A stretch of 64,000 nt of DNA, taken from Asaia bogorensis. Lineage in GTDB: Bacteria > Pseudomonadota > Alphaproteobacteria > CACIAM-22H2. The stretch is from positions 62,001 to 126,000 of the forward strand of contig CAMDLT010000001.1 in the NCBI GenBank assembly GCA_945901855.1. Reading direction: 5' to 3'. Position numbers and translations under genes: made by a program. The notes beneath the pieces are model-generated. The model was given only the letters and a program-made list of their open reading frames with translations, made no database searches and had not been told where the DNA came from. Below, piece after piece: positions 23,857 to 30,925 of this stretch (position 1 is its first letter; every line of letters begins with the position of its first letter).

Positions 23857-24831
23857 TCAACTATTGGTATAGCGCCGGTACCAGGCCACGAAATTCGGCA
23901 CGCCGACATCGATCGCCGTGCGTGGCTCGAAGCCCAGATCGCGCGTCGAGGCTTCGATATCGGCGAAGCTTTCCGGCACGTCGCCCGCCTGCAGCGGCTG
24001 CAGGTCGAGCACGGCTTTGTGGTTGGTCGCGCGTTCGATGAGCTCGACAAAGCGCAGCAGCGGCTCCGATTTGTGGTTGCCCAGATTGTAGACCCGGTGG
24101 CGCGCAGCGGTGCCGGGCGGCGGCACATGGTCGAGCGCCGCGACCACGCCCGCAACGATGTCGTCGATATAGGTGAAATCGCGCCGCATCTGCCCGTTGT
24201 TGAAAACCGGGATGGGTTCGCCCGCCAGAATTTTTTTTGTGAAAATCCACAGCGCCATGTCGGGTCGGCCCCACGGTCCGTAAACCGTGAAAAACCGCAA
24301 ACCCGTGGCAGGCAAATCATAGAGATGGCTGAAGCAGTGGCCGATCAATTCGTTGGCGGCCTTGGTCGCGGCATAAAGCGAGACCGGCCTGTCGATTTTG
24401 TCGGTGACGTCGAAGGGCAGCTTCGTATTGCCGCCATACACTGACGAGGACGATGCATAGACCAGATGCTTGATCCCGCCGTGGCGGCGGCAGGCTTCGA
24501 CGACATTGAAATACCCGACAATGTTGGTGCGGATATAGACGTCGGGGTTGGTGATCGAATAGCGCACGCCTGCCTGCGCCGCCAGATGCACCACGCGATC
24601 GACGCCGCCCTCGCGAAGGGCCGCGGCAAATGCGCCGTCGGCGGCGATGTCGGCGCGTACCATGCGAAAATTCGCATTCTTCGCAAGCTCGGCTGCGCGC
24701 GCTTCCTTGAGCGCAACGTCGTAATAAGGATCGAAATTGTCGAAGCCCATGACGTGCTCGCCGCGCGCGAGCAACGTTTTTGCAACAGAAAACCCGATGA
24801 ATCCGGCAGCTCCGGTGACAAGCACGCTCAT
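23857..24831 (-). CDS. NAD-dependent epimerase, UDP-glucuronate 4-epimerase type
   Basis: 324 residues, extended SDR. The N-terminal VTGAAGFIGFSVAKTLL binds NAD and FDNFDPYYDVALKEARAAEL is characteristic of UDP-glucuronate 4-epimerases. ASSSSVYGGN with SLYAATKAANEL provides the Ser/Tyr-x3-Lys centre, and RFFTVYGPWGRPDMA is the family's substrate-binding stretch. It converts UDP-glucuronate to UDP-galacturonate for polysaccharide or LPS. No other glycan gene is adjacent, apart from the distant GT4 gene at 1503. Confidence 0.92.
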   Translation of the reverse strand: MSVLVTGAAGFIGFSVAKTLLARGEHVMGFDNFDPYYDVALKEARAAELAKNANFRMVRADIAADGAFAAALREGGVDRVVHLAAQAGVRYSITNPDVYIRTNIVGYFNVVEACRRHGGIKHLVYASSSSVYGGNTKLPFDVTDKIDRPVSLYAATKAANELIGHCFSHLYDLPATGLRFFTVYGPWGRPDMALWIFTKKILAGEPIPVFNNGQMRRDFTYIDDIVAGVVAALDHVPPPGTAARHRVYNLGNHKSEPLLRFVELIERATNHKAVLDLQPLQAGDVPESFADIEASTRDLGFEPRTAIDVGVPNFVAWYRRYTNS

Positions 24832-24890
24832 GGCTTGCGCCTTTTAGCCGCCTTGGGCGGCAAAATCACGCGTCTTTTGCGCCAACCCCC

Positions 24891-24920
24891 TGGACAGTCC
24901 CCAAATTCGGCTGCTAGCTT
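24891..24920 (+). promoter_or_regulatory. Predicted trpL-trpE(G) promoter
   Basis: TGGACA (24891-24896) and TAGCTT (24915-24920) are 18 nt apart. The -10 ends 7 nt before the ATG of trpL, so transcription would begin at or next to the start codon, a leaderless arrangement. The -10 match is only fair. Confidence 0.5.
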
Positions 24921-24927
24921 GAACGCT

Positions 24928-24978
24928 ATGGAAGACAACGCGCTTCGCATCGTTCGTTGGCAGGCTTGGTGGCGCTGA
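24928..24978 (+). CDS. trpL: trp leader peptide TrpL
   Basis: A 16-codon frame, MEDNALRIVRWQAWWR, with three Trp codons in its last six and a TGA stop 102 nt before trpE(G). Short Trp-rich peptides like this precede trpE(G) in rhizobia and Azospirillum and control it by attenuation: ribosome stalling at Trp codons when charged tRNA-Trp is scarce favours read-through. No Shine-Dalgarno sequence is present and the predicted -10 lies 7 nt upstream, consistent with leaderless translation. The last codons form one arm of a hairpin whose loop is the stop codon (24970-24975 with 24979-24984). Confidence 0.88.
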   Translation: MEDNALRIVRWQAWWR

Positions 24979-25037
24979 GCGCCAGCCAATCCCTTTTCCC
25001 TTTCCCGATTCAAGCGATCGACCGATTTTTCTGCTGC

Positions 25038-25068
25038 CCCGCGCGCCAAACGCGGGTGCCGCGATTTT
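25038..25068 (+). promoter_or_regulatory. trp attenuator: mutually exclusive hairpins
   Basis: Antiterminator candidate: CCCGCG (25038-25043) with CGCGGG (25051-25056). Terminator candidate: CGCGG (25051-25055) with CCGCG (25059-25063), loop GTG, followed by ATTTT (25064-25068). They share 25051-25055, so only one can form. GCGCCA at 25043-25048 could also pair with TGGCGC at the end of trpL. The terminator stem is short, and exactly how the ribosome selects between the folds is inferred. Confidence 0.6.
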
Positions 25069-25080
25069 GCCGAGGATGCC

Positions 25081-27267
25081 ATGCGCACCGAATTTGTCTC
25101 CCCGACCGGTCTGGTTCTGAGCCGCGTCAAACGGCCGCTCGACTACGAAACCGCACTCGATGGCTTCGCCGAAAAGCTCGACCGCACGCGCGGCGGACTG
25201 TTTTCGTCGGGCGTCGACTATCCGGGGCGTTACTCGCGCTGGGAATTCGGATTCATCGATCCGCCGATCGAGATCCTTGGCAGCGCACGGCGGCTGAGCT
25301 TTCGCGCGCTCAACGCGCGCGGGCAAGTGCTGCTCGACCTGTTCGATCCGATCCTGGCCGAATTCGCCTGCGTCGCGCGCGATGCGAACACACGGGTGTT
25401 CGAAATCGCCGCAGCAGCAGGGCCGTTCCCCGAGGAACAGCGCAGCCTGCAGCCGTCGCTGTTCTCGCCGCTGCGCCGCATCGTGGCGGAATTTGCGGGC
25501 ATCGCGGATCCGTTTTTGGGGCTCTACGGCGCGTTCGGCTACGATCTTCTGTTCCAATTCGAGCCGATCGCGCTTCGCCACGCGCGCGGACCGGACGCGC
25601 GCGAGTTGCATCTGTTCTTGCCGGACCGCATGTACATCGCCGACCGGCGCAAGGAAACCGCGTTTCGCTACGACTACGAATTCGCGCGCGGCGCAGTCTC
25701 GACGCTGGGGGCGGCGCGAAAGTGTTTCTCGCCGGTCCCCAAACGCCGCTACGCCGACGCGACCCTGGCGCCCGAAATTTCGAGCGACCTTTCGGGCGAG
25801 CAATACGGCGCCATGGTCGAGGCCGCGCGCGAGCGCATGCGCGTGGGCGATATCTTCGAGGTCGTGCTCTCGCGCAGATTCGATGCGGCCTATCCGGGTT
25901 CGCCCTCGGGCCTGTTTTCGAAGCTTAAAAGGGTGAACCCGTCGCCGTTCGAATTCTATCTCCAGCTTGGCCACGATCGGCTGGTCGGAACCAGCCCCGA
26001 GATGTTCGTTCGCGTCGAGGGATCGCGCGTCGAAAGCTGCCCGATTTCCGGAACCGCGCGGCGCGGACGCAACGCGATGGAAGACGCCGAGCGGCTGAAA
26101 GCGCTGATCGATTCGGAGAAGGACGAAGTCGAACTTACCATGTGCACCGACGTCGACCGCAACGACAAGTCGCGCATTTGCGAGCCGGGTTCGGTGAAAC
26201 TTCTGGGCCGCCGCCAGATCGAAACCTACGCGGGGCTGTTCCATACGGTCGACCATGTCGAGGGCAGGCTGCGCGCCGACGTCACGGGCCTCGATGCGTT
26301 CATCAGCCATATGTGGGCGGTCACGCTCACCGGCGCCCCCAAAAAATGGGCGGTGGAAATCGTCGAGGCGATGGAGACGGCACCGCGCGGCTGGTATGGC
26401 GGTGCGGTCGGCGCGTTGCTGCTCAACGGCGATGTCAATACCGGCATCACGATTCGCACCGTGCATCTCGAGGAGGACGCTAAAAAACGCCAGATCGCGC
26501 GGTATCGCGTGGGCGCAACGCTGATCTGGGATTCGACGGGGCCGGAAGAAAACGAAGAAACGTATTTGAAAGCCAATGCGCTGTTTCGCGTGCTGAAGCC
26601 CGAAACGGCTGCCGTTGCGAGCGTCGCATTGCCGGGGCCCGGTGCGGGGCTCAAGGTCGTGCTGGTCGACAACGAAGACAGTTTTGTCCACACGCTCGCC
26701 GACTATTTTCGCCAGACCGGCGCAAGCGTATCGACGTATCGCCATGGCCAAAACGCCGCGCAGATAATGGCGCTGAAGCCCGACTTGGTCGTGCATTCGC
26801 CGGGGCCCGGCACGCCCAAGCAGTTCGGCGTGCCTGCCTTGGTGAAGGCGTTGGCCGCGCACAACGTGGCGCAGTTCGGCGTGTGCTTGGGGCTGCAAGG
26901 CACGGTCGAGGCGTTTGGCGGCAGTCTGTCCGTGCTCGATCAGCCGCGCCACGGCAAGCGCTGGAACATCGTGCACGACGCAAACGGCCTGTTCGCCGAT
27001 CTGCCAAGCCCGTGCGCGGTCGGCGCGTACCATTCGCTCTACGCGGACCCCGCGAGCTTCCCGCATACGAGCCTCGACATCGTGGCCAAAACCGAGGCCG
27101 GCATCGTGATGGCCGTGCGGCACAAGACGCTGCCTATCGCAGCCGTGCAGTTCCATCCCGAATCGATTCTGACCATGGGTTGGGCAGGGCGCGGCGAAAT
27201 CGGGCGTATTCTCATCGAAAACGTGCTCGCAACGCTCGTGTTCAAGCGGCGCACCGAAGCGGCGTGA
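25081..27267 (+). CDS. trpE(G): Fused anthranilate synthase TrpE(G)
   Basis: 728 residues: the chorismate-using TrpE part (about 1-510) fused to the glutamine amidotransferase TrpG (about 520-728). TrpE motifs include SPFEFYLQLG, GTSPEMFVRVEG, CPISGTARRG, the Mg/chorismate region DEVELTMCTDVDRNDKSRIC and TGAPKKWAVEIVEAMETAPRGWYGGAVG. TrpG carries GVCLGLQG (nucleophile Cys ~602) and QFHPESIL (His/Glu, ~691). It makes anthranilate, the first step to tryptophan. This fused form is typical of rhizobia and Azospirillum. The Shine-Dalgarno GAGGA is at 25072-25076. Expression is under the trpL attenuator upstream. Confidence 0.97.
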   Translation: MRTEFVSPTGLVLSRVKRPLDYETALDGFAEKLDRTRGGLFSSGVDYPGRYSRWEFGFIDPPIEILGSARRLSFRALNARGQVLLDLFDPILAEFACVARDANTRVFEIAAAAGPFPEEQRSLQPSLFSPLRRIVAEFAGIADPFLGLYGAFGYDLLFQFEPIALRHARGPDARELHLFLPDRMYIADRRKETAFRYDYEFARGAVSTLGAARKCFSPVPKRRYADATLAPEISSDLSGEQYGAMVEAARERMRVGDIFEVVLSRRFDAAYPGSPSGLFSKLKRVNPSPFEFYLQLGHDRLVGTSPEMFVRVEGSRVESCPISGTARRGRNAMEDAERLKALIDSEKDEVELTMCTDVDRNDKSRICEPGSVKLLGRRQIETYAGLFHTVDHVEGRLRADVTGLDAFISHMWAVTLTGAPKKWAVEIVEAMETAPRGWYGGAVGALLLNGDVNTGITIRTVHLEEDAKKRQIARYRVGATLIWDSTGPEENEETYLKANALFRVLKPETAAVASVALPGPGAGLKVVLVDNEDSFVHTLADYFRQTGASVSTYRHGQNAAQIMALKPDLVVHSPGPGTPKQFGVPALVKALAAHNVAQFGVCLGLQGTVEAFGGSLSVLDQPRHGKRWNIVHDANGLFADLPSPCAVGAYHSLYADPASFPHTSLDIVAKTEAGIVMAVRHKTLPIAAVQFHPESILTMGWAGRGEIGRILIENVLATLVFKRRTEAA

Positions 27268-27292
27268 CGCAAGGAGATTGCCGGTAGCGGTG

Positions 27293-27330
27293 CCTTGCGC
27301 GCAACAACCGGCAACGTTGTGCGCGCAAGG
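27293..27330 (+). terminator. Long hairpin after trpE(G), probable terminator without U-tract
   Basis: The arm at 27293-27308 (CCTTGCGCGCA, extra A, CAAC) pairs with 27316-27330 (GTTGTGCGCGCAAGG). This gives 11 bp, one bulged base and 4 more pairs around a 7-nt loop. It lies 26 nt past the trpE(G) stop. No T-run follows, so it may be a 3'-end stabiliser or a Rho-associated structure. Confidence 0.5.
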
Positions 27331-27402
27331 CGGCAAGGTCCTTGCGTTCTTTGCGGCGGGCCGCGCGCCGATTGAGCGGGACGACGCTTCGCGGTACGGT
27401 TT

Positions 27403-27418
27403 TGTCAAGAATTTGACA
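27403..27418 (+). promoter_or_regulatory. Inverted repeat upstream of the indolepyruvate oxidoreductase
   Basis: TGTCAA (27403-27408) and TTGACA (27413-27418) form a perfect 6-4-6 inverted repeat centred 32 nt before the start codon. It could be an operator, or TTGACA could be a -35 element; no convincing -10 is seen at the right distance. Confidence 0.35.
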
Positions 27419-27442
27419 GATTGCCAGGGACGGACGATCGCC

Positions 27443-30400
27443 ATGAACCCAGTTGCCGCCAAGTTGCTCGAACTCTCGCTCGACGACAAGTATACGGCCC
27501 AACAAGGGCGCGTGTTTTTGACCGGCACGCAAGCGCTGGTACGTTTAACGCTCATGCAGCGCGAGCGCGATGTGGCGGCAGGTCTCAATACCGGCGGCTT
27601 CATCACGGGCTATCGCGGATCGCCCTTGGGCGGTCTCGACCAGGCCCTGTGGAAGGCGCGCCGCCACCTCAAAGACCATCACATCCATTTTACGCCCGGC
27701 ATCAACGAGGACCTCGCCGCCACGGCCGTCTGGGGCACGCAGCAAGTCAACATGTTCCAAGGCGCCAAATACGACGGCGTGTTCGGCATGTGGTACGGCA
27801 AAGGTCCCGGCGTCGATCGCTGCGGCGACGTCTTCAAACACGCCAATGCCGCCGGCACCTCACCGCATGGCGGCGTGCTCGTGCTCGCGGGCGACGACCA
27901 TGCCGCCAAATCCTCGACGCTCCCGCATCAGTCCGAGCACGAGTTCGTTTCGGCGATGATGCCGATCTTGAACCCGTCGGGCGTGCAGGAATTTCTCGAT
28001 CTGGGGCTCTACGGATGGGCGATGAGCCGCTATTCGGGCTGCTGGGTCGCGTTCAAATGCACGGGCGAAACGGTCGACAGTACGGCCTCGGTTTCGGTCG
28101 ATCCGCACCGCATCAAGTTCGCGATGCCGACCGATTTCCAGATGCCCGAGGGCGGGGTGCATATTCGCTGGCCGGACCCGTGGCTCGAACAGGAACACCG
28201 GCTGCAAAAATACAAGGTTTACGCGGCGCTGGCGTTCGCGCGCGCCAACAAGCTCGACAAAATCGTCGTCGACAGTCCCAATCCGCGTTTCGGAATCGTT
28301 ACGACCGGCAAGAGCTATCTCGACGTGCGCCAAGCACTCGAATATCTCGGCATCGACGAGGCGCTGGCGGCGCGCATCGGCCTTCGCGTTTACAAGGTCG
28401 CGATGCCCTGGCCGCTCGAACGCGAGGGCGCGCGCGCATTCGCCGAAGGGCTCGAAGAAGTGCTGGTGGTCGAGGAAAAGCGCGCGCTCATCGAGAACCA
28501 GATCAAAGAGCAGCTCTACAATTGGCGCGCCGACGTGCGCCCGCGCGTGATCGGCAAGTTCGACGAAAAGGGCGATTGGATTTTGCCTTCGTCCTACGAG
28601 CTCAACCCCGCGCAGATCGCCAAGGTAATTGCCAAACGCCTGAAACCTTTTTACTGGTCCGATCGCTTGGCCGAGCGCGTGGCGCAGATCGAGGCCAAGG
28701 AAGCCGCCCCCGAAGGCCACAGTTTCAAGCGTATCCCCTATTTCTGCTCGGGCTGTCCGCACAATACCTCCACCAAGGTCCCCGACGGCAGCCGGGCTGC
28801 AGCGGGCATCGGTTGCCATTTCATGGCCCTTTGGATGGATCGCAACACGACCACCTTCACCCAAATGGGGGCCGAGGGCACGCCGTGGATCGGCCAAGCG
28901 CCGTTCACGACCACCAAGCATATTTTCCAGAATATCGGCGACGGCACCTACTACCATTCGGGCTCGCTCGCGATTCGGGCGGCCGTCGCGGCCAAGGCAA
29001 ATATCACTTACAAGTTGCTGTTCAACGACGCAGTCGCCATGACCGGCGGCCAGCCGCATGACGGCCCCTTGACGGTACCGCAGATCACCAAGCAGCTCGC
29101 GGCCGAAGGGGTCGCGCGCATCGTGATAACGACCGACGATACCGAAAAATACGGTACGGCGTCGTTTGCGCCCGGTGTCGAAATCTACGACCGCGACGAT
29201 CTCGACAAAGTGCAGCGCGAATTGCGCGAGGTGCCGGGCGTTTCGGTGCTGATCCACGACCAGACTTGCGCCGCAGAAAAACGTCGTCGGCGCAAACGCG
29301 GTACCTATCCCGATCCCGCCAAGCGCATCTTCATCAACGAAGCGGTCTGCGAAGGCTGCGGCGACTGTTCCGTCAAGTCGAACTGCCTGTCGGTAACGCC
29401 GCTCGAAACCGAGTTCGGCCGTAAGCGCGCGATCGACCAGTCGAGCTGCAACAAAGACTTCTCCTGTGCCAAGGGTTTTTGCCCGTCTTTTGTGAACGTG
29501 CTGGGCGGGCGCGTGCGCAAGCCCAAGAGCAAGGCCACAACGGGCGCGGCCGATCCGTTTGCACTTTTGCCGGCCCCCGTATTGCCTGGCCTCGACAAAC
29601 CCTATGGAATTTTGGTGACCGGCGTGGGCGGAACGGGCGTCGTGACGGTCGGCGCGTTGATCGGCATGGCCGCGCACCTCGAAGGCAAGGGCGTGTCGGT
29701 GCTCGACATGGCAGGCCTTGCGCAGAAGGGCGGGGCGGTCGTCAGTCACATTCGCATCGCCAAGGCGCCCGACGATCTGCACGCGGTGCGCATCGCGTCG
29801 GGCGAAGCGCAGTTGCTTTTGGGCTGCGATGTGGTGGTGGCGGCGGGTGCCGACACGCTCGATAAAATGCAAATCGGGATCAGCCGCGCCGTGATCAACG
29901 CGCACGAATCGCCGACCGGCGATTTCACGCGCAATCCCGATCTCGCATTTCCAGGCAAGGAAATGCAGGACACGATCGGGCACGCGCTCGGCCAAGGGGC
30001 CGTCGACGTGGTCGATGCGACCGCGCTCGCCACCGCTTTGCTCGGCGATTCGATCGCCACCAACCCGTTCATGCTGGGGTTTGCCTGGCAGAAAGGCTTG
30101 GTGCCGGTCGGGCTCGATGCGATCATGCGCGCGATCGAACTCAACGAAGTCGCGATCGATGCCAACAAACGCGCCTTCCAATGGGGCCGCTTGGCGGCGG
30201 TCGATCCGGCGCGCGTCAAGGACGCGGCGGCGCCCACCATGCCCGCCGAGCGCAAGATCGCCAAAACGCTCGACGAGATCGTCGAGGTGCGAATGACGCA
30301 TCTCGCAGGGTACCAGGACGAAGCCCTGGCCCGGCGCTTCGAGGCACGCGTGCGCGCCGTCGAAGCGGCCGAGTCCGCCAAGACGCCAGGCCGCACGGGA

Positions 30401-30925
30401 TTGGCGATGGCGGTCGCGCGCTACTACGCGAAGCTGCTCGCCTACAAAGACGAGTACGAAGTGGCCCGCCTCTACAGCGACGGAAAATTCCGCGCGGCGT
30501 TGGCGCGCCAGTTCGAAGGCGATTTCAAAATCGAGTTCAACCTTGCCCCGCCAATGATCGCCGAAATCGACGCGAATACGGGCCATGCCAAAAAACGCAC
30601 TTTCGGCCCGTGGATGTTTTCGGTCTTTGGCCTTCTGGCCAAGCTCAAATTTCTGCGCGGGTCAGCATTCGACGTTTTTGGACGCACCCAAGAGCGCCGC
30701 ATGGAACGCCGCTTGATCGCCGATTACGAAACGCTGCTCGACGAAATCGTCGCAGGTCTAACGCCTGCCAACCATGCTGCTGCTGTGGGCCTTGCTTCGA
30801 TTCCGGAAGAAATCCGCGGTTACGGCCACGTGAAGGAGGCGCATCTGGCAAAAGCCAAAGCGCACGAGGCGGCATTGCTCGAACGCTTTCGTAACCCCCT
30901 TGTAGCCGCTCAAGCGGCTGAATAA
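27443..30925 (+). CDS. Indolepyruvate ferredoxin oxidoreductase, fused alpha-beta form
   Basis: 1160 residues. Thiamine-diphosphate and pyruvate-oxidoreductase-like domains occupy ~1-610 (GFITGYRGSPLGGLDQALWK; FCSGCPHNTSTKVPDGSRAAAGIGCHFM). A Cys-rich iron-sulfur segment lies near 635-680 (CEGCGDCSVKSNC). The gamma-type domain follows from ~715 (GILVTGVGGTGVVTVGALIG). The enzyme oxidatively decarboxylates aryl 2-ketoacids such as indolepyruvate to acyl-CoA with ferredoxin, in aromatic amino acid breakdown. The single-chain form of ~1160 residues is normal in proteobacteria. I start at MNPVAAK (27443); the upstream open frame is not conserved. It sits directly after trpE(G) but probably has its own promoter. 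Confidence 0.95.
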   Translation: MNPVAAKLLELSLDDKYTAQQGRVFLTGTQALVRLTLMQRERDVAAGLNTGGFITGYRGSPLGGLDQALWKARRHLKDHHIHFTPGINEDLAATAVWGTQQVNMFQGAKYDGVFGMWYGKGPGVDRCGDVFKHANAAGTSPHGGVLVLAGDDHAAKSSTLPHQSEHEFVSAMMPILNPSGVQEFLDLGLYGWAMSRYSGCWVAFKCTGETVDSTASVSVDPHRIKFAMPTDFQMPEGGVHIRWPDPWLEQEHRLQKYKVYAALAFARANKLDKIVVDSPNPRFGIVTTGKSYLDVRQALEYLGIDEALAARIGLRVYKVAMPWPLEREGARAFAEGLEEVLVVEEKRALIENQIKEQLYNWRADVRPRVIGKFDEKGDWILPSSYELNPAQIAKVIAKRLKPFYWSDRLAERVAQIEAKEAAPEGHSFKRIPYFCSGCPHNTSTKVPDGSRAAAGIGCHFMALWMDRNTTTFTQMGAEGTPWIGQAPFTTTKHIFQNIGDGTYYHSGSLAIRAAVAAKANITYKLLFNDAVAMTGGQPHDGPLTVPQITKQLAAEGVARIVITTDDTEKYGTASFAPGVEIYDRDDLDKVQRELREVPGVSVLIHDQTCAAEKRRRRKRGTYPDPAKRIFINEAVCEGCGDCSVKSNCLSVTPLETEFGRKRAIDQSSCNKDFSCAKGFCPSFVNVLGGRVRKPKSKATTGAADPFALLPAPVLPGLDKPYGILVTGVGGTGVVTVGALIGMAAHLEGKGVSVLDMAGLAQKGGAVVSHIRIAKAPDDLHAVRIASGEAQLLLGCDVVVAAGADTLDKMQIGISRAVINAHESPTGDFTRNPDLAFPGKEMQDTIGHALGQGAVDVVDATALATALLGDSIATNPFMLGFAWQKGLVPVGLDAIMRAIELNEVAIDANKRAFQWGRLAAVDPARVKDAAAPTMPAERKIAKTLDEIVEVRMTHLAGYQDEALARRFEARVRAVEAAESAKTPGRTGLAMAVARYYAKLLAYKDEYEVARLYSDGKFRAALARQFEGDFKIEFNLAPPMIAEIDANTGHAKKRTFGPWMFSVFGLLAKLKFLRGSAFDVFGRTQERRMERRLIADYETLLDEIVAGLTPANHAAAVGLASIPEEIRGYGHVKEAHLAKAKAHEAALLERFRNPLVAAQAAE

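Follow-up and report, generated by a model that had tools for sequence, protein, structure and literature searches.

The trpL leader and its gene context

Within the window, by which we mean the whole 64,000-nt stretch of DNA that was analysed, a short reading frame, trpL, sits between trpE(G), encoding a fused anthranilate synthase, and a divergent minus-strand gene (23857-24831) that resembles sugar-nucleotide epimerases and dehydratases, with a match below curated cut-offs. The features of this region are collected in Table 1. The host is an alphaproteobacterium related to Tagaea, the closest named trpE(G) matches, at 77-87% identity, being MAGs labelled Telmatospirillum, Rhodospirillaceae, Rhodospirillales and Azospirillum, together with Tagaea sp. 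CACIAM 22H2. Matches to trpE(G) over most of the query also occur at 43-48% identity in Sporolactobacillus, a Streptomyces and a Bacillota MAG (L046-L052, L056). Starting 11 nt past trpE(G) is a 1215-codon frame (27278-30925, the true start possibly lying further in), which, judging by its sequence, is similar to indolepyruvate ferredoxin oxidoreductase and which could share a transcript with trpE(G).

Table 1. Features of the trpL-trpE(G) region (positions are those of the window)
Feature	Position	Strand	Remarks
-35-like box TGGACA	24891..24896	+	TGGACT likewise 18 nt ahead of the -10 box in L003-L005
Extended -10-like box TGCTAGCTT	24912..24920	+	TAGCTT at 24915-24920 ends 7 nt before the trpL ATG
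Predicted transcription start, on or beside the trpL ATG	24927..24928	+	Placed by -10 spacing only
trpL leader ORF	24928..24978	+	MEDNALRIVRWQAWWR, then stop; 16 codons
Trp/stop hairpin TTGGTGGCGC-TGA-GCGCCA(g)CCAA	24966..24989	+	5' arm includes Trp codons 14 and 15; the loop is formed by the stop codon
Pyrimidine tract TCCCTTTTCCCTTTCCC	24990..25006	+	Contains TTTT (24994-24997), 5-8 nt beyond the hairpin
Predicted attenuated RNA, about 70-76 nt	24928..25003	+	Start placed by promoter spacing, end by the U-runs after the hairpin
Downstream hairpin 1, CCCGCG/CGCGGG	25038..25056	+	CCCGCG 25038-25043, CGCGGG 25051-25056; sequence not conserved
Downstream hairpin 2, CGCGG/CCGCG with ATTTT (terminator-like)	25051..25068	+	CGCGG 25051-25055, CCGCG 25059-25063
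trpE(G)	25081..27267	+	Fused anthranilate synthase, 728 aa; NF010081 E 3e-269, TIGR01815 E 1.5e-248

A first-pass annotation, made from the sequence without database searches, had described trpL as a peptide of 16 codons with three Trp codons, and its coordinates are correct: the Trp codons lie at 24958, 24967 and 24970, and 102 nt separate the end of the frame from the trpE(G) start at 25081. The 64 kb contain, on both strands, three ATG ORFs of 5-20 codons with at least three Trp codons, trpL being the only one with three Trp among its last six residues, and TGGTGGCGCTRAGCGCC is found exactly once in each of 10 of the 11 genomes of the Tagaea-like genus, the missing one being 74% complete. 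Nine of these occurrences lie upstream of trpE(G) on the same contig, and in the tenth (G001) a trpE(G)-like start follows on its own contig. Because trpL is the sole such frame in the window and recurs across the genus in this way, we do not regard it as a chance ORF. What the locus holds is a conserved short upstream frame with adjacent Trp codons directly ahead of a Trp biosynthesis gene, as expected of a ribosome-dependent trp leader attenuator in the broad sense.

The peptide itself is conserved beyond its Trp codons. Nine of the 10 genus leaders read R-I-(V/N)-R-W followed by QAWWR or SRWWR, the remaining one (L006) being RVSFWQAWWR. One-base codon differences among the 10 leaders are 52 synonymous and 0 nonsynonymous at codons 7-10 (RIVR) and 13 synonymous and 30 nonsynonymous at codons 2-6, counts that come from pairs of related, and hence not independent, sequences and that leave out codons with more than one base difference (as in L005, RINR, and L006, RVSF). 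Since the one-base differences counted at codons 7-10 are all synonymous, the residues ahead of the Trp codons, which lie outside the hairpin described below, appear to be selected as amino acids.

The counts that follow rest on three sets of genomes. The family set comprises 22 genomes with a trpE(G) match, from which 15 leaders were counted; L013 and L111 (the leader of L011's genome) match the layout on visual inspection but, having been read afterwards, stand outside the 15, L020-L022 (VWLWRSx and stop) are another leader type, L012 has no recognisable Trp-stop leader and L025 is cut inside the gene. In the class, 42 of 386 genomes matched, three matches that were truncated or close to a contig end being left out of the 33 upstream stretches, from which 12 other-family leaders were picked by hand; L066 (WWRA and stop), although trpL-like, was left out of scoring, L057-L059, L061, L062, L064 and L090 were assigned to the single-Trp or FLWRSR group discussed below, and 13 stretches had no convincing leader (L060, L065, L067-L070, L074, L076, L081, L086-L089). 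For two other orders, with relatives chosen by TrpE(G) similarity, upstream DNA was read in 14 of 15 and 8 of 9 matched genomes.

Promoter-like boxes and predicted transcription start

The promoter-like sequence TGGACA-N18-TAGCTT is present where it had been placed, with its 18-nt spacer, and as TAGCTT ends 7 nt before the trpL ATG, a ribosome site would not fit in between. TAGC is invariant across a 10-row genus alignment, and a TAGCGT or TAGCTT box occurs in all 10 genus leaders. In six of them (L001, the leader in the window, and L003-L007) the box ends 6-7 nt before the ATG, such that a start 7-8 nt past it would land on the AUG; in L008, L009, L010 and L111 it lies 28-33 nt before the ATG, with GGGGAG 12-13 nt before the ATG. 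The genus holds leaderless-looking and leadered forms of one switch, and so offers a natural comparison of how the mode of initiation affects attenuation. TGnTA, a motif that is reported to precede leaderless mRNAs of B. japonicum (PMC4842269), is found in 18 of 21 leaders, from Tagaea-like and other groups, whose -10 box lies 6-9 nt ahead of the start, although these 21 were selected for their -10 spacing and back the motif, not the spacing. A sigma-70 promoter scan of 24700-25300 returned no site at threshold, the -35-like box falling below that of the consensus scanner.

Comparison among leaders speaks for the trpL attenuator and for the leaderless start that had been proposed, and transcription of trpL probably begins on its ATG, with the ribosome initiating directly at the RNA 5' end. 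The closest known parallel is trpL of Sinorhizobium meliloti, likewise a short Trp-codon ORF ahead of a fused trpE(G), lacking a ribosome site and starting at its AUG (a predicted start in the window). This attenuator (Bae and Crawford 1990 and Melior 2019, as cited in PMC7298713) is reported to yield an RNA, rnTrpL, that starts at the trpL AUG and is translated (PMC7298713; PMC10117765), translation being seen by Ribo-seq (PMC10117765), while the RNA acts in trans and its peptide in resistance (PMC7298713). By sequence evidence, the window would extend leaderless trp attenuators to the Tagaea-like lineage.

The Trp/stop hairpin and the pyrimidine tract

The stop codon of trpL forms the loop of a TGGCGC/GCGCCA hairpin, as had been noted, with arms at 24970-24975 and 24979-24984; beyond a bulged G the stem extends through TTGG (24966-24969) and CCAA (24986-24989), making 10 bp overall. 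The pyrimidine tract that follows has a second U-run 12-14 nt past the hairpin. Among six genus representatives, in columns anchored on the stop codon and with gaps scored as differences, mean identity is 0.92 in the hairpin, 0.56 in the tract and 0.41 in the next 45 nt, the yardstick in the same comparison being 0.63 at trpE third positions. The other genera of the family (L013 included) carry a like hairpin of different sequence, GGTGAC/GTCACC formed from TGG TGG TGA, followed by TCCTTTTCCATTTCC or similar. A covariation count on a MAFFT alignment was dropped, since from one genus to another the hairpin moves by two columns relative to the reading frame; what we describe is recurrence.

The most pyrimidine-rich 24 nt of the leader start +3 to +17 after the stop in all 15 family leaders. 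Shuffling a leader often yields the pyrimidine content of its own tract (7 to 852 of 1000 shuffles; 140 of 1000 for the window), so it is the fixed place of the tract, and not its content, that constitutes the signal. The energy of the hairpin was compared with 500 shuffles in which the coding arm was held fixed and the next 24 nt shuffled. It is ordinary in L001 and L003-L006 (126-192 shuffles as good, 126 in the window) and in L015, L017 and L018 (93, 387 and 158), and rare in L007-L010, L014, L016 and L019 (6-25); the hairpins of L020-L022 are weak (138, 320 and 376). An RNA hairpin overlapping the Trp codons is present in the window and kept in the genus; in the window its energy alone is not unusual. 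Folding of 24928-25080 as a whole, which had been suggested as a check, gave nothing better than shuffles (z -0.23), and an Rfam covariance search found no match at the gathering score over the window, nor at E<=5 over 24850-25110.

Downstream hairpins and terminator scores

The first-pass annotation had placed the attenuation switch in two mutually exclusive hairpins further downstream. These exist, and are alternatives to each other in that CGCGG is common to both, but they are weak and unconserved (0.41 against 0.63 at trpE third positions): the terminator-like hairpin 2 has a score d of -16.2 and a dG of -6.1, with 9 of 40 shuffles as good. Moreover, since they lie at least 60 nt downstream, stalling at the Trp codons could hardly choose between them directly. 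Being weak and unconserved, the pair was rejected as the switch.

Terminator scores, computed with a d'Aubenton-Carafa type formula applied alike to the 15 family and 12 other-family leaders, separate the two sets. In 10 of the 12 other-family multi-Trp leaders a downstream terminator lies 28-75 nt past the stop with d of 6.5 to 45.4, 0-1 of 40 shuffles being as good, while in the family downstream d exceeds zero in 1 of 15 only (L018, d 0.8; 6 of 40 shuffles as good). It is -16 to -32 in L001 and L003-L005, no candidate is found in L006 and L007, and in L014 a candidate of d -6.9 has 0 of 40 shuffles as good. Scored together with the tract, the Trp/stop hairpin reaches +6.1 in L007 and +0.6 in L008; in the other 13 of the 15 family loci, which include the window at -7.1, it is below zero or absent as a candidate. 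Neither candidate in the window is a textbook terminator.

A proposed one-hairpin attenuator

The interpretation that we favour, with a little less than even confidence, is that the leader is a leaderless, ribosome-dependent trp attenuator of trpE(G) compressed to one hairpin, releasing an RNA of about 70-76 nt. The ribosome would initiate at the 5' end of the leaderless trpL RNA. The predicted polarity is that, with ample Trp-tRNA, it would reach the trpL stop and leave, allowing the hairpin to fold behind RNA polymerase, and transcription would end in the pyrimidine tract, freeing an RNA of that length with the whole trpL frame. With scarce Trp-tRNA, a ribosome held on Trp14 or Trp15, or reaching in from Trp11, would keep the 5' arm unpaired, and the polymerase would read on into trpE(G). 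One hairpin would in this way do the work of segments 1 to 4 of the classical attenuator, which points to a possible minimal design with a single structure for both stalling and termination. The released RNA of about 140 nt proposed by the first-pass annotation rests on the weak downstream hairpins, whereas the conserved element predicts the shorter species.

We count for this reading the hairpin identity of 0.92, the like hairpin of different sequence in other family genera, the fixed place of the tract in 15/15 leaders, the scarcity of downstream terminators in the family, the weak pairing of the freed 3' arm, the box spacing that fits a leaderless start in 6 of 10 genus leaders and the start and translation reported for S. 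meliloti rnTrpL; in addition, 7 of 9 genus leaders (the exceptions being L004 and L005) have a Trp/stop hairpin that scores above any downstream candidate. Against it we count the hairpin-plus-tract scores, below zero or missing in 13 of the 15 family loci, the ordinary hairpin energy of several leaders including the window's, a tract identity (0.56) that falls below that of trpE third positions (0.63), a tract pyrimidine content that shuffles often equal, and the freed-arm pairing in L003-L005, as a classical relay would need. With the hairpin a sub-threshold terminator in those 13 loci, a degenerate classical relay and a Rho-dependent mode are the main rivals. Because the downstream candidate wins in all six loci of other family genera, at scores below zero except in L018, and loses in 7 of 9 within the genus, a single hairpin is better backed in the genus than across the family. 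Its weak point is the timing of ribosome release, which must be fast because a ribosome sitting on the stop codon also blocks the hairpin; by our estimate, based on general footprint sizes, the following polymerase would then stand roughly at 25005-25010, the end of the tract.

Elements of such a layout are familiar from well-studied systems. In the E. coli trp attenuator, as in the window, the first hairpin encloses the Trp codons together with the stop codon; E. coli differs by its 2:3 and 3:4 segments with a strong U-tract, by its ribosome site and by its control through TrpR. In pyrBI-type attenuators translation directly blocks a single terminator hairpin, and these share with the window one hairpin overlapping the leader frame and, on the one-hairpin reading, the lack of an antiterminator; pyrBI, however, senses UTP through polymerase pausing, not charged tRNA as proposed here. 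A further likeness is offered by the Bradyrhizobium-type trpL L085 (MSIAVRPARFWWRTS), which has adjacent Trp codons, no downstream terminator above zero (d -20.2) and a stop-codon hairpin followed by ATTTTCCTTTCCC, although peptide and hairpin sequences differ from those of the window. The B. japonicum trpL peptide, as published in PMC7298713, is MSTAVAPARLWWRTS.

Alternative mechanisms

An unlikely but serious contender is a relay of the classical kind described for S. meliloti and E. coli, in which the freed 3' arm (24979-24989) would pair downstream and disrupt a terminator around 25033-25068. A downstream hairpin with a short U-run is indeed found in the window, L004 and L005, the downstream candidate outscores the Trp/stop hairpin in 8 of the 15 family leaders, and pairing partners for the freed arm occur at +53 in the window (-11.6 kcal/mol) and at +67 to +72 in L003-L005 (-12 to -15 kcal/mol; 22, 11 and 51 of 300 shuffles as good). 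The window pairing, however, is equalled by 94 of 300 shuffles, the downstream scores are poor or missing in L001 and L003-L007, as given above, and this stretch falls short of trpE third positions in conservation. No consistent downstream partner of the freed arm was found across the family leaders, where pairing energies of -7.6 to -14.8 kcal/mol occur at varying places (11 to 279 of 300 shuffles as good); the terminator is much stronger in 10 of the 12 other-family leaders, and the pairing likewise in 10 of the 12, the latter reaching -17.0 to -23.0 kcal/mol at +29 to +56 (1 to 78 of 300 shuffles). The contrast with S. meliloti is drawn through these sampled leaders, of which 10 of 12 have a separate terminator that the window's family lacks. 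As a strong intrinsic 3:4 terminator was not found between the leader frame and the gene, we do not file the leader as a classical four-segment attenuator.

A variant that we consider doubtful would keep the single-hairpin attenuator on a leaderless RNA but add the nascent peptide (RIVRW here; HPPKFIAFLW before the stop elsewhere), whose residues ahead of the Trp codons would be selected for slowing the ribosome or its release, one Trp codon before the stop then sufficing. It draws on leaders of other orders. In one of them, 13 of 14 leaders have a single Trp codon, placed immediately ahead of the stop (HPPKFIAFLW and its variants), the remaining one being FLWRRG, and the 8 upstream stretches of a second comprise 2 with HPPKFVSFLW, 3 with FLWRSR (L023 among them) and 3 without such a leader. 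The HPPKF(I/V)(A/S)FLW type is found in L057, L059, L062, L064, L090, L092, L095-L101 and L103-L105, more loosely in L059, L090, L099 and L105. Across 15 single-Trp leaders, with L090 (from a third order) in and L061 and L099 out, pairwise comparison gives 257 synonymous and 83 nonsynonymous one-base codon differences, where a synonymous fraction of 0.20 would be expected, the pairs again not being independent. Since a conserved peptide here carries a single regulatory codon, these sequences suggest that the nascent chain takes part in single-Trp leaders, in a role like that of an arrest peptide, and they make it testable whether a trp attenuator can rest on nascent-peptide arrest. The literature matches listed in our search held no description of a single-Trp trp leader, which may nonetheless already be in print.

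Rho-dependent attenuation strikes us as improbable. The C-rich, almost G-free tract would here be a rut site, exposed on ribosome release, from which Rho would halt the polymerase before trpE(G). A G-poor, C/U-rich tract at a fixed place in 15/15 family leaders, TCC recurring every 6-8 nt in several loci and the absence, by score, of a good intrinsic terminator would all fit. A ribosome stalled at Trp14/15, on the other hand, should not cover 24990-25006, so that the dependence on Trp would go unexplained; the hairpin would have no role; and the tract's pyrimidine content in the window is one that leader shuffles equal in the proportion given above.

That there is no premature termination at all, with hairpin and trpL governing the translation or stability of trpE(G) mRNA, is very improbable. 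In its favour, the terminator candidates in the window are all below zero, and one subclade (L009, L010, L034, L111) shows complementarity between the trpL 5' UTR and the ribosome-site region of trpE(G). Against it, neither the window nor L008 shows such pairing, about 90 nt separate the hairpin from the trpE(G) start, and the S. meliloti trpL leader is reported to act by transcription attenuation (PMC7298713). In that subclade the 5' UTR segment GGGAGTTCC is complementary over 9 nt to GGAACTCCC, 161 nt downstream, the duplex having an energy of -20.4 kcal/mol for L009 and L111.

The putative released RNA and the FLWRSR leaders

It had also been suggested that the released trpL RNA could act in trans. 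At the trpD locus, 2.9% of 582 control stretches did as well as or better than the best of 13 stretches, which after 13 looks gives no support; a putative trans role is, on this one locus, neither supported nor excluded.

The FLWRSR leaders L023, L058 and L091 are another compressed layout. They carry a GCCGG/CCGGC hairpin with the stop codon in its loop and, directly after it and within 23 nt past the stop, a small hairpin with TTTC, scoring d 11.0, 1.1 and -3.7, respectively.
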